Shown here piece by piece: positions 32,803 to 49,228 of a DNA stretch of 64,000 nt. Position numbers and translations under genes: made by a program. The notes below the pieces were generated by a model. It was given only the letters and a program-made list of their open reading frames with translations. It did not search any database and was not told where the DNA came from. The stretch's first letter is position 1. Every line of letters starts with the position of its first letter. The DNA is from Promethearchaeota archaeon (GTDB lineage Archaea; Asgardarchaeota; Lokiarchaeia; Sigyniarchaeales; SOKP01), in assembly GCA_016839765.1 (NCBI GenBank), contig JAEOTP010000043.1, positions 1 to 64,000 on the forward strand, read 5' to 3'.

Positions 32803-33858
32803 ATGATTGATAAAATAGTTGTGTTTGGAGGCAAAGGCGGTGTTGGAAAAAGCTCAATTAGTGCTGCAACAGCCGTAAAGCTTTCGGAATTAGTTCCCAC
32901 TAAAAAAATTCTATTAATTTCATTTGATATTGCACATAATTTAACTGACATTTTTGGAATCACTATAAACAGTAAAATAACTCCTATTACGGATAACTTA
33001 TGGGCAATTGAACCTGATCCAAATCTTTATGCTGAAAAATATACAAAAGATTTAGTGGAAAAAATGAAAACTCTTATAAAACAAATGCCTATCATTGGAA
33101 ATTTACCTCAAATCGAGAAGTTTATTAATACGACATTCACAGCAGATTCTATCCCATTGGCTTTAAAAAATGCGATGTTTTTCCAAAAATTACTAGATGC
33201 AGAAGATCTTGATACTCAAGAAATTCAATTTGATATCATCGTAGCAGATTTTCCTCCCACAGGAAATATGGTGGCTCTTTTCGAAATTCCCGAAGATCAA
33301 GTTAAAGTTGTTTTGAAATATTCTTTAAATTTTTATAATTCAATTAGAGGGGCAATTAGAAATTTCTCTAAAATGTTTAGACAGCTAATTAAACCTTTTG
33401 ATGATGGAAGCTATGAAAAAAGAAGAGAATTAGGAAATGAAATTTTTAACATGGTAGTAGAACTTGAAAAACGTGGAGAAAGAATAAGCGAATTAATTCA
33501 TAGTGTAGGATCCTTACGATTGGTCACTATCGCTGAAAGACCTAGTTTTGAAGAAATAAAAAGAGCACGAGATTTAACTAAAAGATATATTTCCCTTCAT
33601 GCTGTTCATATAAACATGTTAACTCCCGAAGTAAAAAAATGCGAATACTGTAAAAAGATGAGATCTAACCAATTAAAATTTACATCAGAAATTAAAAACG
33701 AGTTTAAAAAATTAAGAATTTGGGAATCAGATCGCCTTATTGATGAACCAATTGGATTAGACGGGATAAAAAAACTCGCCACGGAAGTGTATGGAAATGT
33801 TACTGCAAATGAAATTTTGAATCCTCTAGTTAAGATGAAAAAAATGAATAAAATTTAG
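32803..33858 (+). CDS. Get3/ArsA-like ATPase
   Basis: 351 aa, SIMIBI-class. Deviant Walker A GGKGGVGKSS (residues 8-17), switch I LISFDIAHNLTDIF, switch II VADFPPTGNMVAL and a CEYC pair (zinc-site-like as in Get3). In Get3/ArsA proteins switch I is DPAHN and switch II DTAPTGH; the Pro-to-Ile change in DIAHN and the D-F-P-P-T-G-N variant are unusual. ArsA pumps arsenite; Get3 inserts tail-anchored proteins. With ftsY and secE nearby, targeting is plausible but not proven. The 3' end overlaps ahcY by 4 bp (convergent). Confidence 0.8.
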   Translation: MIDKIVVFGGKGGVGKSSISAATAVKLSELVPTKKILLISFDIAHNLTDIFGITINSKITPITDNLWAIEPDPNLYAEKYTKDLVEKMKTLIKQMPIIGNLPQIEKFINTTFTADSIPLALKNAMFFQKLLDAEDLDTQEIQFDIIVADFPPTGNMVALFEIPEDQVKVVLKYSLNFYNSIRGAIRNFSKMFRQLIKPFDDGSYEKRRELGNEIFNMVVELEKRGERISELIHSVGSLRLVTIAERPSFEEIKRARDLTKRYISLHAVHINMLTPEVKKCEYCKKMRSNQLKFTSEIKNEFKKLRIWESDRLIDEPIGLDGIKKLATEVYGNVTANEILNPLVKMKKMNKI

Positions 33859-35123
33859 GTCCCTTCAAGGTATCCATGGATATAATTGTATTGTTCCCCA
33901 GTCAGTTCATCAATTTCAATGCCCATTGATTGTAATTTTAAATATCCTACTTTATTATCTATTTCTGTTGGAATCTCGATTATACCAGGTTTGAAGGACC
34001 CTTTATTTTTAACAATATACTCAGATATTAATGATTGTAAAGCAAAAGACATGTCCATTACTTCACTTGGATGACCTTCAGATAATACTAAATTAGCTAA
34101 TCTTCCTTTAGCAAGTAAATAAATCTTTTTACCACCTGGCAGAGTCAATTCTTCTACATGTTTTCGTATTGGTTTTACTTCTTTAGCATAGTCATATAAT
34201 TGTTTAGTTGGAATTTCAATATCAAAATGACCTAAATTCCCAAGAATGACACCATCCTTGAATGTGTCAAATATTTCAGGTTTAGGTGGAATAACATGCT
34301 TACATCCTGTAGCTGTTAGAATTACATCTGCCTCTGGAAGAGTTTTAAGAATAGGTTTTACATCAAATCCTGCAAATTTGGCTTGTAAGGCTTTTATTGG
34401 ATCCACCTCTGTTACAGTCACATTTGCACCTAAACCTTTTGCTCGTAATGCCATCCCTGAAGAACAATGACCATATCCTGCAATAACAACATCCTTTCCA
34501 GCAAATAGTATATGCATTCCATATATTGCTGAAATGACCCCTTGTCCTGTGCCTAGCTCATTATCAAATTGATTTTTGCATCGCGCATCATTGACTGGAA
34601 ATAATGGTACTTTTAATACACCCTGTTTATCCATAGCTCTGAAGCGTTTTACTCCGGTTGTAGTTTCCTCTTGACATCCAATTATAATACCTTCTTCAAT
34701 TAATTCAGGAAATTCTTTATGTGCCGTTACAATCATATCTGCTCCATCATCTATCAAAATATTTGGTTTTGCTTTCAAGCATTGTCGTATACACCAGTAA
34801 AACTCTTCATCAGTATTTCCATGCCAAGCAAATACATTAACTCCCTCTTCAACTAAAGCTGCAGCTACATCGTCTTGGGTTGATAATGGATTGCTGCCAC
34901 ATAAATAAACCTCTGCTCCTCCTGCTTTAAGTGTACGTGCGAGATTTCCAGTTTCTTTAGTAATGTGTAGGCATCCCGCGATGACCACACCCTTCAATGG
35001 TTTTTCTTTTGTAAATCTTTCACGAATAATTTTAACCGTTACTGGCATTTTTCTTTCTGCGATATATAATGCTTCTTTTCCCTTTTCAGCTAATGATTCA
35101 TCAGCAACTTTATAATTTACCAT
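33855..35123 (-). CDS. ahcY: Adenosylhomocysteinase
   Basis: 422 aa. Hydrolyses S-adenosylhomocysteine, the product of all SAM-dependent methyl transfer. Family motifs include GVVIAGCLHITKETGNLARTLKAGGAEVYLCGSNPLSTQDDVAAAL, VNDARCKNQFDNELGTGQG, the NAD-binding VVIAGYGHCSSGMALRAKGLGANV and LGNLGHFDIEI. It ends like archaeal/bacterial AhcY with YNYIHGYLEGT rather than the eukaryotic YRY ending. Minus strand, divergent from the Lrp-TBP-Lrp gene. Confidence 0.95.
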   Translation of the reverse strand: MVNYKVADESLAEKGKEALYIAERKMPVTVKIIRERFTKEKPLKGVVIAGCLHITKETGNLARTLKAGGAEVYLCGSNPLSTQDDVAAALVEEGVNVFAWHGNTDEEFYWCIRQCLKAKPNILIDDGADMIVTAHKEFPELIEEGIIIGCQEETTTGVKRFRAMDKQGVLKVPLFPVNDARCKNQFDNELGTGQGVISAIYGMHILFAGKDVVIAGYGHCSSGMALRAKGLGANVTVTEVDPIKALQAKFAGFDVKPILKTLPEADVILTATGCKHVIPPKPEIFDTFKDGVILGNLGHFDIEIPTKQLYDYAKEVKPIRKHVEELTLPGGKKIYLLAKGRLANLVLSEGHPSEVMDMSFALQSLISEYIVKNKGSFKPGIIEIPTEIDNKVGYLKLQSMGIEIDELTGEQYNYIHGYLEGT

Positions 35124-35199
35124 TTAAAGTTCACTTTCAAAGTTTTACTTTTAATAATTTTAATTAACTAATAAAGATATTTTTGGTTAAATGCAAATA

Positions 35200-35210
35200 T
35201 TTATATATTT
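35200..35210 (+). promoter_or_regulatory. TATA box of the Lrp-TBP-Lrp gene
   Basis: TTTATATATTT, a textbook archaeal TATA-like element 34-44 bp before the ATG at 35244. The transcription start should fall about 25 bp downstream, near 35230, giving a leader of about 15 nt. Confidence 0.5.
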
Positions 35211-35243
35211 AATTTGACAATTAATTAATAATATACAAGAAAA

Positions 35244-36494
35244 ATGCAAAATTGTAATATTATGAGTAGTAGTAAAGATCGAGTGGAAGCCCAACACTTT
35301 ATAAAGAATTTAAGTGGAAAAACCAAATTTGTTATATCAAAAAATTCACGTGCGATAGGACTCTCTAGACAAACATATCAAAACAAACTTGATAATTTGA
35401 GATACCAAAAAATAATTACCAATTTTACAATTAATATTAATCCAAATATTCGCCCAAATAATTTGAAATATGTAATGATTGAAATAAAAACTAACCCTAA
35501 AGAACCTGAATTAGTCGAAGAACTCTTAAAAATTCCGCAATTAAGAATGTTAGATGGAATATTTGGAGATTTTTCTCTGTTTGCATTATTTATTTTTAAA
35601 TCTCCCGAGGAATATTATCAGATATTGAATAACATTGATAAAACTATGTCAAAATCATATTTTAAGAAATATCAGATAATCGAAACTATTAAGGTGTTTA
35701 AAACAAATGGAATTAGCTTGAGAGACTCAAAAATCTCATTTACTCTTGGAAAAAAAATCAATTTAAAAGAAATTGCTAAAAATTCTGCGAATATCGAATA
35801 TAACCCACAGAAATTTCCGGGCGTTGTTATGAAGATAGAAGATCCAAATGCTACAATTTTGATTTTCTCAACTGGTAAAATAGTAGTAACTGAATTTAGA
35901 AAAGAAATAGGAGCTAAACAATTAATAGATAAAGTTGCCCAAGAGATAAGAAAAACAGGAATTCAACTAGAGAAGAAGATTAGTCAAAATTTTTATATTG
36001 ATGAGATAGATTACCTTATTTTAAAAATATTACAAGATGACCAAGGATTAAGACCAATTTCTACATATGAAATCAAAGATTTGCTAAATGAAAAGTATAG
36101 AATGACTTTAAAGTCTCTGAACAAAGACGATATTTCACAATCAACTATTCATAACAGAATTAAAAAACTCGAACAACAAGGTGCTATCTTAAATTATACA
36201 GTGAATTTTTGTCCAAAAAAAATAGGCTTTAAAGGCAAATATCTCCTTCGTATTAAACCAAAAGATCCATCAAAATATAATGAACTTGCTCTTAAACTGG
36301 ATATGCACAAAAATATTACTGATTTATTTCGAATAGGCGAACAATATGGATTATTTGCGATTGTTAGAGTGGAAAAAATTGAAGATTTTGCCTCTTTTAT
36401 CAAGGATCTATATAGTTCAGAAGAAATTGAAGATACATACACAAGCTTTGTTTTAGATGAGTTGAAACCTTATACTAATTTTATCCTTTTTTGA
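35244..36494 (+). CDS. Lrp/AsnC - single TBP lobe - Lrp/AsnC fusion regulator
   Basis: 416 aa with three parts. Residues about 10-62 form a helix-turn-helix (NSRAIGLSRQTYQNKLDNL) and 73-150 a RAM-like ligand/dimerisation domain. Residues about 163-243 are one TATA-binding-protein lobe: LGKKINLKEIAKNS, EYNPQKFPGVVMKIEDP, then ILIFSTGKIVVTEF and a QLIDKVAQEIRKTGI helix. Residues about 250-320 are a second helix-turn-helix (DDISQSTIHNRIKKLEQQGA) and 328-405 a second RAM (GKYLLRIKP, LFRIGEQYGLFAIVRV). TBP normally has two tandem lobes on one chain; this has one. A Lrp-type dimer would bring two lobes together, so it may recognise TATA-like DNA. I do not know this architecture. ATG 35244 or 35262. 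Confidence 0.8.
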   Translation: MQNCNIMSSSKDRVEAQHFIKNLSGKTKFVISKNSRAIGLSRQTYQNKLDNLRYQKIITNFTININPNIRPNNLKYVMIEIKTNPKEPELVEELLKIPQLRMLDGIFGDFSLFALFIFKSPEEYYQILNNIDKTMSKSYFKKYQIIETIKVFKTNGISLRDSKISFTLGKKINLKEIAKNSANIEYNPQKFPGVVMKIEDPNATILIFSTGKIVVTEFRKEIGAKQLIDKVAQEIRKTGIQLEKKISQNFYIDEIDYLILKILQDDQGLRPISTYEIKDLLNEKYRMTLKSLNKDDISQSTIHNRIKKLEQQGAILNYTVNFCPKKIGFKGKYLLRIKPKDPSKYNELALKLDMHKNITDLFRIGEQYGLFAIVRVEKIEDFASFIKDLYSSEEIEDTYTSFVLDELKPYTNFILF

Positions 36495-36591
36495 AATTCA
36501 AATGATTTTAAATTAGTTTTCCAGAGAGTTTTTAAAAAATTTAAAGAATATTAATTTATTTACTTTAGAATCATTTTTTTATTTGTATATT

Positions 36592-38673
36592 ATGAATTAT
36601 TTTTATGAAATCTTAAATAAACGGATAGGTTATTCTAGAGTCGGGAGAATCAAATTATCGAAGGAACCTAAGAAATATGTAAAGACTCCTAACGTTATTC
36701 TCCCTATGCGAAATTTTCTATTGAAAAATGTTAACTTCTTAGAAGAGTTTGAAGACCATGAAATTTTTTTAATATCAAAAGAAGTTTTCCTAAAAATAGG
36801 TTTTTTGCGCGATAAGTTTAGAAATACAGCTTTTATTTTCACCCATACAGGTACACTACAAACATTTATAGAAATTTTAGAGAATAATATTGACATCTTC
36901 TCGGAAGATAATATTATTCTTCTAATCCCTTTCAATATCCCAACGACAATTCTTGATGAAAATTTTGCTAAAAATGAAATCTTATATCATCTTAATTCAG
37001 TAAAAAAACTCTTAGAAAATTTTCCAAATCTTAATTTTGGGTTAAGTATTAAAATATTTGAACATCCACAATTCCTTGATCTATATAGTCCATTAATAAA
37101 AGAAAATAAAAATATTAAAATATTAAATTTAATTGACTTTTTCACTGCTAATACTAATTTTAGAAATGTCTTGGATTTAATTATTAGCATTAAACAAAAC
37201 TTTGATAATAATTTAGTTTTAATGGCTTCAGGACGGATTATCCCAAAGTATTTTCCAATTTTAATTTACTTAGGTATCGATCTTATTGATAGCTCATATT
37301 TACTTTATTTAACTTCAGAGAATTTCTATGATACAATAGAATTTTTACTTCCAATTTATAAAGTAAAGTATTTTCCTTGTTCATGTGTAGCTTGTCAAAC
37401 AAAATTAAAGAACTTCCAAAGTATGAAATATTCAGATGAAATATTTGAATATTTGTGTCTACATAATCTAATAACAGCAAAAACTTATATGAATAAAATA
37501 AAACAATATTTAAGGACAGAGGATTTCCGAGCATTTGTAGAAAAGACCTCATTTGATGATGTTCTAATCGTTTCAATATTAAAAGTATTAGATAGACAAT
37601 ATTTTGATTTAATAAAGTATGAGACTCCGATAACAGATTCTTTCTCGACAGTTAAATGCTTTGGTCCATCTTCTTACTATAGGCCAGACTTTCATCAATT
37701 TAGGGAGAGGTTAATAAAATATTTTTTACCTGAACCGTGGACAAAATTGATTATAATTTTTCCTTGCTCTGCAAGAAAGCCATATTCAGCATCAAAATCT
37801 CATAAGAAATTTCACAGTGTTTTAAGGAAATTTCCGGATTTCCCGGATTTTCAAGAAATTATTCTTACTTCCCCTCTTGGAGCTATACCACGACAGTTAG
37901 AAAATGTCTATCCTGTAAATTCATATGATATATCTGTAACTGGATTTTGGGATAATGAGGAGATTGATTTAGCTTCTCAAATGTTGGTTGAACTACTTAA
38001 GAAGTATAATACAAAAATCCCTATTATATGTCATGTAAGTGATAAAGGATACAAGGAAATTGTTTTAAGAGCACAAAAACAACTGTCTAACCAATTTTAT
38101 TTTACAGAGGTCTACAAAAATCTTACAACTTCTGATTCATTGAAGTCGCTGGAGAACATCGTAAATAATTTAAAAGATATTTTTATTTTAAAGGAAAATA
38201 TACCAAAGTCGAAGTATTATTCAAAATCGTGGGTTCGAAAATTAGTTAAAATTGCTGATTATCAGTTTGGTTCTAATATTGGTATGAAAATCTTTTCAAA
38301 AGGAATAAGAGTCAAGAAAAATAATGTGAGTAAAAATTTAGATATTATTGATATTGAAAACAAAAAATTATTAGGAAAATTTTTGGTTAAGACGGGTCAA
38401 ATTGAATTAACATTAATTGGAGCAGAAATTTTATCAGCCATTGACAAAGAATTTAATATTTTGGTCTTTGATGGAGATTTAATAAAGGGAAATACTCTTT
38501 TTAGACCAGGAATTGTTGAATTTAGTCAGAATCTTATCCCAAATAATTATGTTATTATTTTGGATAAAAGTAAAAAAAGTGTGATTGGACTTGCCAAATT
38601 AATTGTTGGTTCAAATTATATAAAAAACTCAAGTAATGGAAGGATTGCTAAAGTTTATGAAAAAATCAGTTAA
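36592..38673 (+). CDS. arcS: Archaeosine synthase (ArcS/TgtA2)
   Basis: 693 aa from ATG 36592. The C-terminal half has the diagnostic IIIFPCSARKPYSASKSHKKFHSVL, LTSPLGAIPRQLENVYPVNSYD and a terminal PUA-like RNA-binding domain (IDKEFNILVFDGDLIKGNTLFRPG). The N-terminal half is a degenerate tRNA-guanine-transglycosylase-like domain, longer than usual. ArcS works on preQ0 at tRNA position 15, making archaeosine with glutamine/lysine; with RaSEA (next gene) the lysine adduct is converted to archaeosine. The reading frames of the two overlap by 17 bp. A TTG at 36583 is unlikely. Confidence 0.9.
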   Translation: MNYFYEILNKRIGYSRVGRIKLSKEPKKYVKTPNVILPMRNFLLKNVNFLEEFEDHEIFLISKEVFLKIGFLRDKFRNTAFIFTHTGTLQTFIEILENNIDIFSEDNIILLIPFNIPTTILDENFAKNEILYHLNSVKKLLENFPNLNFGLSIKIFEHPQFLDLYSPLIKENKNIKILNLIDFFTANTNFRNVLDLIISIKQNFDNNLVLMASGRIIPKYFPILIYLGIDLIDSSYLLYLTSENFYDTIEFLLPIYKVKYFPCSCVACQTKLKNFQSMKYSDEIFEYLCLHNLITAKTYMNKIKQYLRTEDFRAFVEKTSFDDVLIVSILKVLDRQYFDLIKYETPITDSFSTVKCFGPSSYYRPDFHQFRERLIKYFLPEPWTKLIIIFPCSARKPYSASKSHKKFHSVLRKFPDFPDFQEIILTSPLGAIPRQLENVYPVNSYDISVTGFWDNEEIDLASQMLVELLKKYNTKIPIICHVSDKGYKEIVLRAQKQLSNQFYFTEVYKNLTTSDSLKSLENIVNNLKDIFILKENIPKSKYYSKSWVRKLVKIADYQFGSNIGMKIFSKGIRVKKNNVSKNLDIIDIENKKLLGKFLVKTGQIELTLIGAEILSAIDKEFNILVFDGDLIKGNTLFRPGIVEFSQNLIPNNYVIILDKSKKSVIGLAKLIVGSNYIKNSSNGRIAKVYEKIS

Positions 38674-39754
38674 GTCTAGTTCAATTGTCGAAAATATTAA
38701 AGAAATTAGAGACAAAACAATTTTAAAGAGGAAAAATTTTACAAGCGATCAATTAAATAAACCAGTTAGTTTTTGGATAAAGGATGATCGCCTTTTAAAT
38801 GAAAAAGGAAAGGAATTTACTATTATCTTAAGAACTAAAGGGTGCAGCTGGGCATTAAGCGATAGTGGGGGATGTTCAATGTGTGGATATATAAATGATT
38901 CCAGTATTGAAAGTATAGACGATAAACATATTATCAATCAAGTAAATCATGCTTTTCAATCAAAATTGGAAGAAATTAGAATTGAAAGAAAGAATTTTAT
39001 ATTTAAGATTTTTAATTCTGGGAGTTTTTTCGATGAGAGTGAAATCTCTGAAGAAGTAAGGAACCATATTTATCAGAAAGTATATGAGAGTGATAGGATA
39101 CAAGAATTTGTTATTGAATCTCGCTTAGAATATATTTCAAAAATGAAATTAATAGATTTAAAAAACCAACTAAATGATAAATATATTGAATTAGCGATTG
39201 GCCTTGAAACGGTTAATGATTATATTAGAAACACTTATATAAATAAATCAATGTCTTATGATGATTTTATAAAAGTTTTTCGCATTTGCAAAGAAATTGG
39301 AATCGGAGTGAGGGTATATTTACTATTTAAACCCCCCTTTTTAAATGAACAAGGTGCTATAGACGATTGCGTCAGATCTATTATAAATCTAATTAATTTA
39401 GGAGTAGAAACGGTATCAATAAATCCTATAAATATTCAAAAAGGTACATTATTAGAATATTTATGGTATCAAAATCGTTATAGACCTCCATGGTTTTATT
39501 CTCTTTTTAAAAGTTTACGCAAAATCCATGAATTAAAAAAAGATTCAACATTTCCTCGTCTAATTTCAGATCCATCTGGAGCTGGAACGAAACGAGGGAT
39601 TCACAATTGCCTAAAAAGAGAATGTAATCAAAAAATGATAAGCATTCTTCGAAATTTTGTATTATCACAAGATTTTAACTATTTAAATAAAAAAGATGCA
39701 TATTATGATTGTGATTGTTTGACAAGATACCGTCTTCAAAAGAATTTCCATTAA
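38657..39754 (+). CDS. raSEA: Archaeosine biosynthesis radical SAM protein RaSEA
   Basis: 365 aa. Radical SAM enzyme that acts with ArcS to form archaeosine from the lysine-preQ0 adduct. The cluster motif is C-x8-9-C-x2-C in TKGCSWALSDSGGCSMCGYIN, and a partner region LAIGLETVNDYIRNTYINKSM, VRVYLLFKPPFLNEQGA is present; a C-terminal zinc-like motif (NCLKREC, YDCDC) completes the family profile. Start chosen at ATG 38657 (17-bp overlap with arcS); ATG 38636 would give a 38-bp overlap. Both genes are translated together. Confidence 0.9.
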   Translation: MKKSVKSSSIVENIKEIRDKTILKRKNFTSDQLNKPVSFWIKDDRLLNEKGKEFTIILRTKGCSWALSDSGGCSMCGYINDSSIESIDDKHIINQVNHAFQSKLEEIRIERKNFIFKIFNSGSFFDESEISEEVRNHIYQKVYESDRIQEFVIESRLEYISKMKLIDLKNQLNDKYIELAIGLETVNDYIRNTYINKSMSYDDFIKVFRICKEIGIGVRVYLLFKPPFLNEQGAIDDCVRSIINLINLGVETVSINPINIQKGTLLEYLWYQNRYRPPWFYSLFKSLRKIHELKKDSTFPRLISDPSGAGTKRGIHNCLKRECNQKMISILRNFVLSQDFNYLNKKDAYYDCDCLTRYRLQKNFH

Positions 39755-40283: not shown

Positions 40284-41243
40284 ATTTCGAGTTGGAATTA
40301 TATAGAAGTTCTACCAAAAAAAGAAATTTCTATTGAAGATGATAATTGTACCGAATGTGGTAAAAAAATCATAAAAAATTCTGATTCACTTTTGGTTTGT
40401 GAAGAGTGTGGCTTAGTCCATTCGGGAAATCATATTGATCGTGGTCCTGAATGGAGAGCATTTGATGCTGATCAGAAGAAAAAGAGAACTCGAACTGGAG
40501 CGCCAATGACTTATATGATTCATGATAAAGGTTTAAGCACAATGATTGATTGGAAAAACAGAGACATTTTTGGCAAGGAAATTCCCGCAAAATCAAGGGG
40601 ACAAATCTATAGATTACGCAAATGGCAAAGTAGAATAAGGGTATCCGATGCAACAGAGAGAAATCTGACTTTTGCACTAAGTGAATTAGATCGCATGGCT
40701 TCAAATTTAGATCTCCCTAAAAATCTTCGTGAGTGTTCCGCAAAAATATATAGGGATGCGGTCGATGCTCACCTCATAAGAGGACGAAGTATTGAGGGTG
40801 TAGCTGCAGCAAGTTTATATGCCGCTTGCAGAATGTATAAAATACCTAGAACATTGAATGAAATTGCCGAAGTTGCTCGGGTGGATAAAAAGGAGATAGG
40901 AAGATCTTTCCGTTTTATATCCAATGAATTGGTCCTTAATTTGAATCCAACTAAACCCCTCGATTTCCTTACCAGATTTATTTCTGAGCTAGAACTAACA
41001 CATGATTGTCAAAAAGCAGCTAAAATAATTATTAAAATAGCAGAAACTCGTGGGTTGACGTCAGGAAGAGGACCGACAGGAGTTTGTGCAGCAGCCATTT
41101 ATGCTGCAAGTATTTTGACCAAAGAAAGAAGGACACAAAGAAAAATTGCTAAGATTAGTCAGGTAACTGAAGTTACTGTCCGTAATCGATTCACAGAGCT
41201 TATAGAGAATTTAGATTTGGGCATCTCATTAAAAAAGAAATAA
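40284..41243 (+). CDS. tfb: Transcription initiation factor TFB (ATT start inferred)
   Basis: 319 aa from ATT 40284. The zinc ribbon ([28 protein letters not shown]), B-reader/linker ([34 protein letters not shown]) and two cyclin folds (residues about 115-210 and 215-315) are all present. TFB recruits RNA polymerase and binds TBP. The in-frame sequence from the upstream stop (40278-40280) to the ribbon has no ATG, GTG or TTG; the first TTG (40392) would delete half the ribbon. ATT at 40284 sits 6 nt behind GGTG, so ATT initiation is the simplest reading. Alternatives: ATA start or a spliced 5' end. Confidence 0.85.
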
Positions 41244-43417: not shown

Positions 43418-46400
43418 TTATTGATAAATTGTTTCAACCCAATTTTCTAACTCTAAATATAATTTTTTTAACTTATTGATCTGTTCTTCTGTTGCATCCC
43501 AGTAATTTCTATTTTCTGCTTGTAACATATTTCTAATTATATCCATCATTGCAAATCTATTATTTTCAATAAGTGCCTCTCGAATTTCCTCATTTTCTAC
43601 ATATTGTTGATAGCTTTTATCCCAAATCCAATTATCTACAGCATGAGCTGTTGCTGCGAGTCCTAAAACATTCTCAACACGTTCAGCGACTTTTTGACCA
43701 CCATGATATTTATGCTTCAGCAAGGATTTTATCCATTGAGGATTCAAGTTACGCGTAATTGCTCCTTCTTTTATACTTTTTTCCAGACGATCTACTTGAA
43801 TTTTTTTTCTTGAGGTGTCAGCAATATATACATTTGCTTTTTCACCACTAAGGTGTTCATGAGTTCTGGCTAAACCTCCTGTAAATTCATAATAATGGTC
43901 TAAATCTGTAATATGATATTCGCTTGAGTCTCTAATCTGACTCATTAAATTGATTTTACTTACTGTTTGAGAAAATGTTTTTGGGCTCTTTTTAACATTT
44001 TGATTTTTCATGTATGCAAAACTCATATTATTAATATAATCATCAACGAGTTCTTGTTCTTCTTTCCATTTTCCAGCAGAGATTATATTAGTAAGATTAG
44101 TATTGTATTTTCCTGGAGGAGGACCAAACACCCTTGCATTGGGAACCTCAACTTCCTGATTTTTAAGTTCTATATACGTTTTTTTAACAAAATTCTTGTC
44201 TAGAGGCTCATCTAATTCTGCTACAGTCTCAATTACGTGATTAATCAACTCTAATAAAAAAGGAAAAGTATCTCTAAATATTCCGCAAATTGTAATAAGA
44301 ACATTAATTCTTGGATGAGTCATTTCTTCTAAAGGAATTACTTCAAATTCAGTAGTCCAAATAGATTTATTTTTTATTGCTCTTACACCTAAATAATTAA
44401 AAATTTGACCTATTGTTTCGCCACCAGTTTTCATAGTCTCAAATGCCCATAAAACCACGCTAACTGTTTCAGGATATTTATTATTTTCATTATAATATTT
44501 TTTTAATAGTCTCTCTGCGATTATTGATCCTCTTTTATAAGCAGTGGTATTAGGGATTAATCTGGGATCAAAACCATAAGAATTTCTACCTGTTGGGAAG
44601 ATATGAGGTGAACGGATGGTATCTCCACCCAATCCTGGTTCAATATACCCTCCTTCTAACGCATGGACCAAATTTTCCATTTCCATAGAGTTATCCATTC
44701 TGTATATAAGATCAATGATCCAATTCACGAAAAATTTCTTTTCTTGATCGGTAATTTGAAAACTTAATACAAGAGAACTTGATATTCTATCTATATTAAA
44801 ATTATTTATGTTCGCGGAGGCGTTAATTTGATTTAATATTTGGTTAATAATACCATTAAGTTCATCTGACGCATTTTTTTTTTCTTTGAATAATTTTGAT
44901 ATAAATGTGTCGATTTCCTCTGGTTTTTCTACAGAATTTAATAGTATCATATTAATAATATCTTTTTTCTCCTGATCATTGTATTTTTTACCCAATATGT
45001 GTAAACCCATAGGAATTATCGATGTTTTATACCGATATAATATATCCTCTAATTCGGAAACACTATTATACTCTAATTCTAACTTTTCTGCTAAGTCTTT
45101 TATTTCTTTTTCTAAATCTTCAATTCTTTCGGATTTTACATGATCAGAAGAATTTTTAAGATTAAAATCGAATTCAGATTGGTATTCCTTTATCAATGTT
45201 TCTAAATTTTCTAATTCTTCATATAAATCAGAATTTTTGAATGATGGACCAGCATGATTAATAATTAATGCATTTCCCCTCCTTTTAGCAATTGCAGATT
45301 CACTGGTATTAGTAATATGATAATAATAGAGATTTGGAATATCCCCTAATAAATTCATAGGGTAATCCCATAAACCACCAGCACATTCCTTACCTGGTAA
45401 AAATTCTTCAGTTCCATGTGTTCCAATGTTTATAACAGCATCTACATCTAGTATTTTTTCAAGATATCTATAAAAGGCTATATATTGATGATGTGGTGGC
45501 AAATTTTTATCATGATATTCATTCGGATCTCCAGTAACAGTACTTCGGGATGGTTGTAAGCATAAATACAAATTATTTAACTTTATAATTGGTAGTTTTA
45601 TGTTTGAATTTTCGGTCATGATTTTACCAATGGGAGTACCCCAGAATTTATACGTATCATGCTTTAATTGCTCTGGCAAATCGGAAATTAAATTTAAATA
45701 GTTCTCTTTATCTAAGATAATTCCATTGAAGTTTGGAGCCTTAATGTGTTTTACTTTATTTACTGAGCCTCCTTCAATAAAAATATCAGCAAGGTTTTTA
45801 TCCTCAGGGATATTTTTTACATTATATCCTTCATTAGCGAATTGATTAATTAGATTGCGAACTGATTCAGATACATCTAAATAGGCTGCGTTTCCAATCT
45901 TATCTTCGCCAGGAGGATAATTATAAATAATTAGAGCAATAATTTTTTCTGAATTTAATTTAATTCTTAATTTTAACCACTTTCTAATTCTATTACATAC
46001 TAAAGATATATTTTCAGTTATAGGAGCAACTTCTAGTACATCTGAATGAATTTTTTCAGAATATCCCAGGTTTTTGATACATCCAACAGTGATCATCTCA
46101 AATCTACCATCAAGTTCAGGCATTACAATAGCAATAATTTGATTGATGGGGATAATTCCTTCTTTGGATTCTACATATTTTTCTAAAGGCATATCAAATT
46201 GAATAATTGGATTGAAATGAGGAACATCCATTTTTTTAAAAAGATCTAATGTAACAGAACCGTCTCCGCCAAAAGGACCTCCATTTAGTTGAAAATATTG
46301 AAGATTTATTACACCACTTACAATGCTTTTATTATTTTGCAAGAAAAACTTTTGATAGGCTTCCAAATTCGTTAATACATCTGAAAATACAGGAATAACA

Positions 46401-47227
46401 TTAAAATCTGTTAAATTCTTAATAAACTCTTCTACTATAGGGAGTGATTGCTCAAAATACAATCCGCCATAAAAAAATAAGCCAAGTGTTTGTTTTTGTA
46501 AATTAATAGGTTTAACTTTAAAATAATCTTCTAAATTACCAAAGTATCGATTCAAATTGATATCATAAATTCCAAATGAAGGAATTTTGAGAGGCTTTTG
46601 GACTTTTAGGTCTTTATACCCCATGTAATGTTTTAGTAAAAAAAGTATCATATTTTTATGATTTTCGGCCAAACCACCAAGACCGTAAACCCAATAATCC
46701 ATCATTAAACCCCAATATCTAGCATGTCTCAATACTTTAATAGGAAAAATTTTACCCATCGTTTTCATTAAATTAGTCATTTTTTGCCCGAATCTTACAC
46801 CATTAGTTATATCAGGGATTTCATCTATTCCGTATTCTGTTTGTTGAGGTGAAGGGATTCTTCGTGCAAAGAATGGGCCCATTTTGGTTAACCTCCTGAT
46901 TTCACTATTTCCTCCTACTAAAGCTATGATGGTTTTTGAGTTAAACAATTTAGGATTTTCATTTTCCATTTTTTTATAAGTATCCACTAATAGCTCAACT
47001 GTTGGACAATTCCCTCTAATATCAATCAGCATAATTCGTGATTCGTAAATTTCTTTTATGAATTCATCTTTAGTTGTTTTACCAGAATCAACATCATTTA
47101 AAAAATATACTTTAAAATCAAATTGCTTTCCAATTTCTCTATAAATCTGAGAAATACACTCTGTTAACCATTTTGTAAATACACTAGCTGAAATTAGTGT
47201 AATTTTAGGAATTTTTTTACTAATCAT
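43418..47227 (-). CDS. cobN: CobN/BchH-like large chelatase subunit
   Basis: 1269 aa. CobN/ChlH large subunit, the metal- and tetrapyrrole-binding part of an ATP-dependent metal chelatase. Visible marks are DAVINIGTHGTEEFLPGKECAGGLWDYP, LLGDIPNLYYYHITNTSESAIAKRRG, GGDTIRSPHIFPTGRNSYGFDPRLIPNT and LEKSIKEGAITRNLNPQWIKSLLKHKYHGG, each with well conserved positions of the cobN family. Cobalt insertion for corrinoids is the likely role, given the CODH/ACS gene and B12-radical SAM gene; Mg is improbable. It partners with the ChlI/D gene 24 bp upstream on the same strand. Confidence 0.85.
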   Translation of the reverse strand: MISKKIPKITLISASVFTKWLTECISQIYREIGKQFDFKVYFLNDVDSGKTTKDEFIKEIYESRIMLIDIRGNCPTVELLVDTYKKMENENPKLFNSKTIIALVGGNSEIRRLTKMGPFFARRIPSPQQTEYGIDEIPDITNGVRFGQKMTNLMKTMGKIFPIKVLRHARYWGLMMDYWVYGLGGLAENHKNMILFLLKHYMGYKDLKVQKPLKIPSFGIYDINLNRYFGNLEDYFKVKPINLQKQTLGLFFYGGLYFEQSLPIVEEFIKNLTDFNVIPVFSDVLTNLEAYQKFFLQNNKSIVSGVINLQYFQLNGGPFGGDGSVTLDLFKKMDVPHFNPIIQFDMPLEKYVESKEGIIPINQIIAIVMPELDGRFEMITVGCIKNLGYSEKIHSDVLEVAPITENISLVCNRIRKWLKLRIKLNSEKIIALIIYNYPPGEDKIGNAAYLDVSESVRNLINQFANEGYNVKNIPEDKNLADIFIEGGSVNKVKHIKAPNFNGIILDKENYLNLISDLPEQLKHDTYKFWGTPIGKIMTENSNIKLPIIKLNNLYLCLQPSRSTVTGDPNEYHDKNLPPHHQYIAFYRYLEKILDVDAVINIGTHGTEEFLPGKECAGGLWDYPMNLLGDIPNLYYYHITNTSESAIAKRRGNALIINHAGPSFKNSDLYEELENLETLIKEYQSEFDFNLKNSSDHVKSERIEDLEKEIKDLAEKLELEYNSVSELEDILYRYKTSIIPMGLHILGKKYNDQEKKDIINMILLNSVEKPEEIDTFISKLFKEKKNASDELNGIINQILNQINASANINNFNIDRISSSLVLSFQITDQEKKFFVNWIIDLIYRMDNSMEMENLVHALEGGYIEPGLGGDTIRSPHIFPTGRNSYGFDPRLIPNTTAYKRGSIIAERLLKKYYNENNKYPETVSVVLWAFETMKTGGETIGQIFNYLGVRAIKNKSIWTTEFEVIPLEEMTHPRINVLITICGIFRDTFPFLLELINHVIETVAELDEPLDKNFVKKTYIELKNQEVEVPNARVFGPPPGKYNTNLTNIISAGKWKEEQELVDDYINNMSFAYMKNQNVKKSPKTFSQTVSKINLMSQIRDSSEYHITDLDHYYEFTGGLARTHEHLSGEKANVYIADTSRKKIQVDRLEKSIKEGAITRNLNPQWIKSLLKHKYHGGQKVAERVENVLGLAATAHAVDNWIWDKSYQQYVENEEIREALIENNRFAMMDIIRNMLQAENRNYWDATEEQINKLKKLYLELENWVETIYQ

Positions 47228-47251
47228 TTTTTTAAAATAAGAAATGTGATT

Positions 47252-49228
47252 TTATGATAAATCTTTAAGAATTCCTTCTATTGATAAAACTTGATTTAGA
47301 TTTCTTTCATTTAAATGATCTAGATGATGATAAATAGCATTAGCAGCTTCTGAAAGTTTTTTATTAATTTCTAATTTAACATCTGAATTTTCAGTATCTA
47401 TAATAATTATATTTATTTCATTATTTGCAATATATTCTCCAGTTTTAATAATATCTTCAATAGGATCATTGAAATATACATTACCTCTCGCATCAGTTAA
47501 AAGAATGATTAATGGTATATATCCAGTATTTTTACGATTTTCTTCGAGAGCAATATCTACTGCCTTCATTAATCCTGCAACCAATGGAGTTGTTCCTCCA
47601 GTTGGAACATCTTTTAATAACTTATATGCTAAATCCGTGCTCCTTGTCGGAGGTAATATGACTTCAGCTTTATCTTTTCTAAAGACTATAAGAGATACTT
47701 TATCCCTATAGACATAATTACTTTTTAGAATTGAAAATATTGTACCTTTAACAGATTTCATTCGCTCATTAGCCCCCATAGAGCCAGATGCGTCAACACA
47801 GAAAATAACTAAATAGCTAGATTTTCCTCTCCTTTTTTTAATATGAATATGATCTTCCTTAATTAGGAGATGCTCTCCATTTTGTACCAATAATTGATTT
47901 TCTGAGTCTAAGGCAGCACTATTTATAGTTTCATTAATGGCAATATCACTAGCTTTTGAAAAATCAAACTTACGAGGTTTTCTACCGCCTAAATATTTAG
48001 CTTTTGAATCTCTGGTAGGGTGAGTAACTCTCTGGCCTGAGACATTCAATAATGCCCTCCTTTTTTGATCTTTTATCAAATCTCCTGTTTTAATAGAGGT
48101 ATCTATCTCAAAAATTTCTTCCTGATTGTTGAAAATTTGTTTATCCTTAAGGGAATCTTCAAATGGTCCTTGATTTTCAGTGAAATCAGAAGTTTCCCGT
48201 TCATTGAATAAATCTTCAATATCTTCTTCATTTAAGGTTTGTTCTTCGAATGGAAGTCTTCTTAGCCTATGATTGAGGGCGAGTTTAGCTGCTTTTTTTA
48301 TGTCTTCTTCAATTACCTCATCTCTTCCTTCAAATGCTGCTAAAGTTTTAGCTGTACGAGTAATTGTTATATCTGCTCTATGACCATCTACTTGAAAGGC
48401 AATACAGATTTTTGCAATTTTTTTTAAAAAATTTTCAGAAATAACAACTTGATTTAAAAGCTTTTTAGCATTAATAATCTTGCTTCTTAATTTCTTTTGT
48501 TCTTTTTCAAACTTTTTTAAGAAATTATGAGGATTATTTTGAAATTCCTCAACATGTTTAACAATCTGAACACGCTTGTCAATATCTTTAATTCTTTCTA
48601 CATCAACACTTAATCCAAATCGGTCTAGTAACTGAGGTCTTAGATTTCCCTCTTCAGGATTCATTGTTCCAACTAAAATAAAATTAGAAGGATGATGAAA
48701 ACTAAGACCTTCACGCTCAATTATATTTAATCCCATAGCAGCACTATCTAAAAGAATATCAGCAACATTATCCGCTAAGAGGTTAACTTCATCAATATAA
48801 AGAATATTTCTATGAGCTTCAGCTAAAATTCCTGGTTCTAAAGATTTTAATCCCTCCTTTAATGCTCTCTTAATATCGATTGTACCTACAACCCTATCTT
48901 CAGTAGCATTTATAGGAAGAGTAATAACCCTCATCTTTTTACTATCGATATCATTTTGATTAATTTGATTGTTTTGGTATTTTTCTAGGCAAGAATGACA
49001 CATTTCTTTTTGATCGTAAGGATTGCAATTAAAAGTACAAGATTTGATATATTCTATTTCTGGTAATATATCAGCCAAAGCTCTAACTGCTGTTGATTTA
49101 GCTGTTCCTTTCATTCCACGTATCAATACTCCTCCAATTTTTGGATTTACCGCATTTAAAGTTAGTGTTAATTTCATTAAATCTTGACCAATTATCGCGG
49201 TAAAAGGATAAACAATTTTATGAGTCAT
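47252..49228 (-). CDS. chlID: Chelatase ATPase fused ChlI-ChlD (AAA+ plus VWA)
   Basis: 658 aa. Residues 1-340 form the AAA+ ChlI-type ATPase with Walker [10 protein letters not shown] (residues 38-46), an inserted cysteine cluster ([18 protein letters not shown]) and YIDEVNLL as Walker B. The C-terminal part is a VWA domain with [18 protein letters not shown]. Together they power metal insertion by the CobN/ChlH-like subunit encoded next. Order chlID-cobN on the minus strand fits an operon with translation of both from one mRNA. ATG at 49228. Confidence 0.9.

Follow-up and report, generated by a model that had tools for sequence, protein, structure and literature searches.

A single TATA-binding protein lobe between the two Lrp/AsnC units of a putative regulator in Lokiarchaeia

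Archaea combine regulators of bacterial type with a basal transcription machinery of eukaryotic type, and, to our knowledge, few cases have been described in which it is clear how these two are connected. The window, i.e., the whole stretch of 64,000 nucleotides of contig JAEOTP010000043.1 (Promethearchaeota archaeon) analysed here, encodes a protein in which a regulator and part of a basal factor are joined in a single chain, and its host belongs to the archaeal phylum that is closest to eukaryotes. The question raised by this locus is what a lobe of TATA-binding protein (TBP) contributes to a protein of the Lrp/AsnC type. The protein and its parts are as follows.

35244..36494, plus strand: Lrp-TBP lobe-Lrp protein, 416 aa; architecture also found in 12 other genomes
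35295..35699, plus strand: Lrp unit 1, aa 18-152, winged HTH and RAM domain (PDB phmmer, PF01037)
35721..35981, plus strand: single TBP lobe, aa about 160-246 (PF00352, AF2, Foldseek, N-lobe ancestry)
35991..36458, plus strand: Lrp unit 2, aa 250-405, HTH and RAM domain (PF01037, HTH_24, HTH_AsnC)

The initial annotation had placed one TBP repeat at residues 163-243, between two Lrp units, and Pfam, PDB, AF2 and Foldseek all agree with this arrangement, the boundaries being right to within a few residues. The lobe (aa 165-237) matched PF00352 with E=1.3e-21, covering positions 10-84 of the 85 in the profile, and as this was the only PF00352 stretch in the protein, the lobe is single. In phmmer searches against the PDB, the lobe segment matched archaeal TBP chains down to 1.1e-29. 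The TBP fold, for which a structure prediction had been suggested as the check, was indeed adopted by the AF2 model of the lobe fragment (pLDDT 77.5, pTM 0.69; predicted order beta-alpha-beta-beta-beta-beta-alpha), and the 44 PDB matches of this model in Foldseek with E <= 3.1e-5 were TBP chains without exception. The model of the full-length chain (pLDDT 55) was too weak for domain-domain geometry. The C-terminal unit is, by its predicted HTH and RAM domains, a clear Lrp unit (RAM/AsnC domain, 1.3e-12; HTH_24, 6.5e-6; Pfam). The N-terminal unit, likewise with predicted HTH and RAM domains, is a diverged one: its RAM match (PF01037, 3.8e-4) falls under the Pfam cut-off, among PDB chains, phmmer aligns it best with the Lrp protein PH1519 (aa 18-131, 3e-5), and the weaker PDB matches are mostly Lrp proteins as well. 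The host genome also encodes an ordinary two-lobe TBP (contig C67), to whose N-lobe the fused lobe is 53% identical. An in-frame ATG at 35262, kept in many relatives, offers an alternative start; at the site of the first ATG (35244), several relatives have TTG instead.

Within the GTDB family, the Lrp-TBP-Lrp arrangement is encoded in a single open frame by 13 of the 65 genomes, distributed over five genera, with proteins of 417-443 aa; most other genomes of the family encode a double-Lrp protein of 312-351 aa that has no lobe. A profile of the 13 proteins detected the arrangement in none of the 163 other Asgard genomes (228 genomes in total). In a pattern scan across 84,980 species, all matches were to Lokiarchaeia apart from one remote bacterial Lrp match, the patterns being located in Lrp unit 1 and hence blind to other Lrp-TBP architectures. 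Since the open frame recurs in 12 other MAGs, the architecture is no artefact; an assembly chimera or a frameshift was rejected on the basis of the single open frame and the conserved flanks seen in 13 MAGs. Each of the 13 members has a single lobe per chain, with a PF00352 match and the Y-x-P-x-x-F-P core retained in every case. The annotation had named absence of the segment from orthologues as evidence against a genuine lobe, and here the outcome was divided: most orthologues do lack it, but 13 genomes possess it. At L069 and related g8 loci, the linker from the first RAM domain to the lobe has about 20-30 additional residues (EEELLDQLVNKLSEK...) and looks amphipathic-helical; this stretch is missing in the window protein. 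Many Loki genomes (e.g., G031 and G002) contain two or three canonical TBP genes, which are arranged in tandem in L089 and L093.

The neighbourhood of the gene comprises the following features.

33855..35123, minus strand: ahcY, adenosylhomocysteinase, divergent neighbour (TIGR00936, 7e-156; synteny)
35124..35243, no strand: divergent intergenic region of 120 bp common to ahcY and lrp (alignment of 18 loci)
36583..38673, plus strand: ArcS-like archaeosine synthase subunit (NF040592, 6.2e-93, under its cut-off; synteny)
38636..39754, plus strand: RaSEA, archaeosine radical SAM protein (TIGR01210, 3.5e-94; synteny)
40392..41243, plus strand: transcription factor B (TFB), TFIIB homologue (NF001658, 1.5e-134; synteny)

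In nearly all loci on a sufficiently long contig, ahcY is located divergently upstream, with and without the lobe alike; arcS follows downstream in most loci, and raSEA and the TFB gene come next where the flank suffices. Because proteins with and without the lobe occupy the same syntenic site, the lobe must have been inserted into a pre-existing regulator gene, the TBP-free double-Lrp protein at this site being the ancestral form. Further downstream, a cobaltochelatase CobN/ChlH-like large subunit of 1269 aa (43418-49228, minus strand), read by eye from the translation, adjoins a ChlI/ChlD-like AAA+ protein, possibly forming a metal chelatase pair in this Lokiarchaeon.

In the tree of the Lrp parts, every protein with a lobe falls into one clade (bootstrap 100 / 99), within which five TBP-free proteins are nested with strong support. 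A mixture-model tree gave the same picture, with at least three changes, and an exclusive clade of lobe-containing proteins was rejected (AU test, p=0.016), which argues for losses of the lobe. These trees are most simply explained by a single gain of the lobe, followed by at least two losses. In the TBP-free g8 proteins, the linkers are short and similar to the start of the linker in lobe-containing proteins. In the tree of the lobes, the fused ones group with the N-terminal and not with the C-terminal lobes of Loki TBPs (SH-aLRT 97.7, bootstrap 99), a placement that traces them back to a canonical Loki TBP and, within it, to the N-terminal lobe. The proposal that the single lobe might preserve an ancestral state of TBP was therefore abandoned, given this grouping inside rather than outside the N/C split and a derived distribution restricted to one family, in which the lobe was gained once and lost at least twice. 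The fused lobe of L049 lies outside the other fused lobes, with weak support; in view of its placement, repeated capture or replacement of the lobe is possible.

A second family of proteins with a single TBP lobe occurs in seven genomes of the same genus (L034-L040; e.g., L036:1312-2277, minus strand, and L035:1043-2014, plus strand). These proteins of about 320 aa consist of an N-terminal domain that matches no Pfam family but, by eye, loosely resembles AbrB, and a C-terminal TBP lobe of N-lobe type (PF00352, 1e-20) in which Asn69 is replaced by Lys in all seven. In the Pfam analysis they contained no Lrp domain, and they were therefore dismissed as another Lrp-TBP fusion. Relatives of about 228-248 aa lack the TBP lobe, and one of them is encoded in the window's own genome (G000:C57:124241-124903), which is why the second family seems to have acquired its lobe in a separate event.

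For the fused lobe, the initial annotation had put forward that dimerisation through the RAM domains could pair two lobes, and that the rebuilt TBP saddle could bind TATA-like DNA or compete with TBP. The TBP fold found by AF2 and Foldseek is what such a saddle would need, and Lrp proteins are known to form dimers and octamers (PMC2995911). To judge the surface of the lobe, residues were counted from an anchored position in 34 canonical Loki N-lobes and the 13 fused lobes, in the numbering of yeast TBP, whose sequence we took as the assumed reference. Asn69, Val71 and Thr73 occur in 34 of 34 canonical N-lobes; among the fused lobes, Asn69 is present in one of 13, and Val71 and Thr73 in none. 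The window protein has Leu at the Asn69 site and Asp at the Val71 site, and strand S1 of the g8 relatives carries acidic residues. Asn69 and Val71 are presumably the central minor-groove contacts in TBP-TATA structures, and strand S1 is what we take to be the lobe-lobe seam of the saddle, so that the contacts at the seam appear to be lost. Phe99, in contrast, is retained in 13/13 fused lobes and Phe116 in 10/13, the pair being complete in ten including the window protein and Phe116 having been lost in three. Lys120 (or Arg) is present in all 13, Val122 in eight and Thr124 in six. The phenylalanines of TBP kink DNA (PMC4041446). The retained pair suggests some function of the concave face, and it is possible that the lobe makes some contact with DNA through these residues. 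The residues of S1 thus speak against the saddle proposal, and the persistence of the Phe pair in ten of 13 lobes keeps the model conceivable. Further points against it are the two RAM domains per chain, which may pair within the chain, and the fact that the lobe has repeatedly been lost from a gene that itself persists together with its promoter region. We regard a rebuilt saddle as highly improbable.

The remaining features of the lobe also differ from those of a canonical N-lobe. The N-stirrup motif R-I-x-x-P-R/K is found in only one of 13 fused lobes. Counted from the D81-equivalent onward, the net charge averages +6.7 in canonical lobes and +3.9 in fused ones. The mean identity among fused lobes is 48%, compared with 80% for their Lrp parts and 82% for canonical N-lobes, and dN/dS is 0.15-0.70 for the lobe versus about 0.1 in the Lrp parts. 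Pooled independent pairs nevertheless gave pN<pS for the lobe (Fisher p=0.002), demonstrating at the codon level a purifying selection that is weak but real. The lobe is thus folded and constrained but, with the S1 contacts and most of the stirrup lost and its evolution fast, the constraint is not that expected of a TATA-binding surface.

Such rapid divergence could also mean that the lobe is a neutral passenger, tolerated in a permissive linker, drifting, and deleted without consequence. Its omega of up to 0.7, the identity of 48% as opposed to 80% in the Lrp parts, the changes in Phe116 and stirrup, and at least two losses all fit this explanation. It is less easily reconciled with the excess of synonymous changes (pN<pS, p=0.002), although selection for fold or solubility only would give the same signal, and with the facts that 13/13 copies are still recognized by Pfam as TBP, with the Y-x-P-x-x-F-P core, and that the lobe has been kept in five GTDB genera. 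A neutral passenger is rather unlikely, if well worth considering.

The lobe might instead heterodimerise with, or otherwise bind, the TBP or TFB of the organism itself, and so recruit the basal machinery directly, as an activator would. Its descent from a Loki TBP N-lobe, with 53% identity to the N-lobe of this genome, agrees with such a role, as does the recruitment of TBP by archaeal Lrp activators (PMC2995911). The N-stirrup, however, is preserved in one lobe only. The presence of a TFB gene in the same conserved cluster seemed to point in the same direction; it was dropped as a pointer to the function of the lobe, because TFB is found equally in the conserved neighbourhood of TBP-free loci and the linkage is uninformative on the lobe. 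Direct binding of TBP or TFB for activation is, in our estimate, quite improbable.

The reading we prefer, with the chances for and against it about evenly balanced, is that of a tandem Lrp regulator with an optional TBP-derived module for protein contacts rather than for TATA recognition. The double Lrp/AsnC protein would control the ahcY promoter and its own, ahcY being a likely target judging from its position alone. Its two Lrp units would bind an operator and sense a small ligand. In the simplest history, the linker between them was invaded once by the N-lobe of a Loki TBP, in an ancestor within one family of Lokiarchaeia, and the TBP-like face of the lobe would be turned towards a protein partner instead of TATA DNA. 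Against a protein-contact module, it has to be said that between genera the lobe shows little conservation at its surface (48% mean identity), which would be unusual for a fixed protein interface.

In archaeal Lrp activators such as Ptr2, it is the RAM domain that makes the contact with TBP, activation by Ptr2 is hampered by TBP mutations, and members of the family act via recruitment of TBP or exclusion of RNAP, assembling as dimers and octamers (PMC2995911). By analogy, the lobe could be a built-in TBP decoy for the RAM surface, tuning how the genuine TBP is recruited to the ahcY promoter; we hold this refinement to be distinctly unlikely. In a broader version, a single chain would read the operator, sense the ligand and directly control how TBP is recruited at ahcY by means of a captured half-TBP serving as decoy or dock, and perhaps touching promoter DNA with its Phe pair, the second Loki family having been captured independently; this scenario, too, is on the unlikely side.

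The divergent intergenic region (35124-35243) is strikingly conserved for AT-rich non-coding DNA. Throughout the clade, in relatives with and without the lobe, the 120 bp show strong conservation; they contain TTTTTGGTTAAATGCAAAT (35180-35198) and the TATA-like TTTATATAT (35200-35208). Lrp dimers bind imperfect inverted repeats, and the element TTTTTGG-N5-GCAAA, flanked by two TATA-like elements, is a candidate operator. A search of more distantly related double-Lrp loci did not recover, in their intergenic regions, the pattern TTTG-N8-CAAA that is conserved in the clade of lobe-containing proteins; for this reason no operator is claimed, and the intergenic elements are best described as possibly having an operator role.

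Orthologues with and without the lobe thus occur naturally at the same locus, behind a near-identical promoter region, which makes the contribution of the half-TBP directly testable. These orthologues also show that single parts of TBP can be co-opted for other functions, and the lobe described here looks like a borrowed accessory part rather than a rebuilt or an ancestral TBP.

With the archaeal Lrp/AsnC (feast/famine) regulators Ptr2, LrpA and FL11/PH1519, the window protein shares the HTH and RAM units; ordinary Lrp proteins, however, are single units of about 15 kDa, whereas here two units enclose a TBP lobe. Siroheme decarboxylases AhbA/AhbB are derived from Lrp and can consist of two Lrp-like units in one chain (NirDL-type). 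They are alike in having such a double chain, but were rejected as the identity of the window protein, which scored far under the NCBIfam cut-offs (19.2 versus 125 bits and 18.2 versus 140 bits). The N-lobe of canonical TBP (PF00352) resembles the fused lobe in sequence, fold and ancestry, with Phe99 and usually Phe116 kept; the canonical protein forms a two-lobe saddle, whereas the fused protein has one lobe, has lost Asn69/Val71 of S1 and the stirrup, and carries that lobe inside a specific regulator in an organism that retains a normal TBP besides. In the literature searched, no description of an Lrp-TBP fusion was found. RNase HIII and other proteins of the TBP superfamily likewise join one TBP-type lobe to another module, and the TBP-type domain of RNase HIII is called ancestral to TBP (PMC7289017, citing Brindefalk et al. 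2013). Domains of the RNase HIII type are deep, diverged members of the superfamily, whereas the fused lobe is a recent derivative of a true archaeal TBP. A single lobe fused to another module is thus already known from RNase HIII; what had no counterpart in the literature searched is a recently derived, true TBP lobe within an Lrp regulator.
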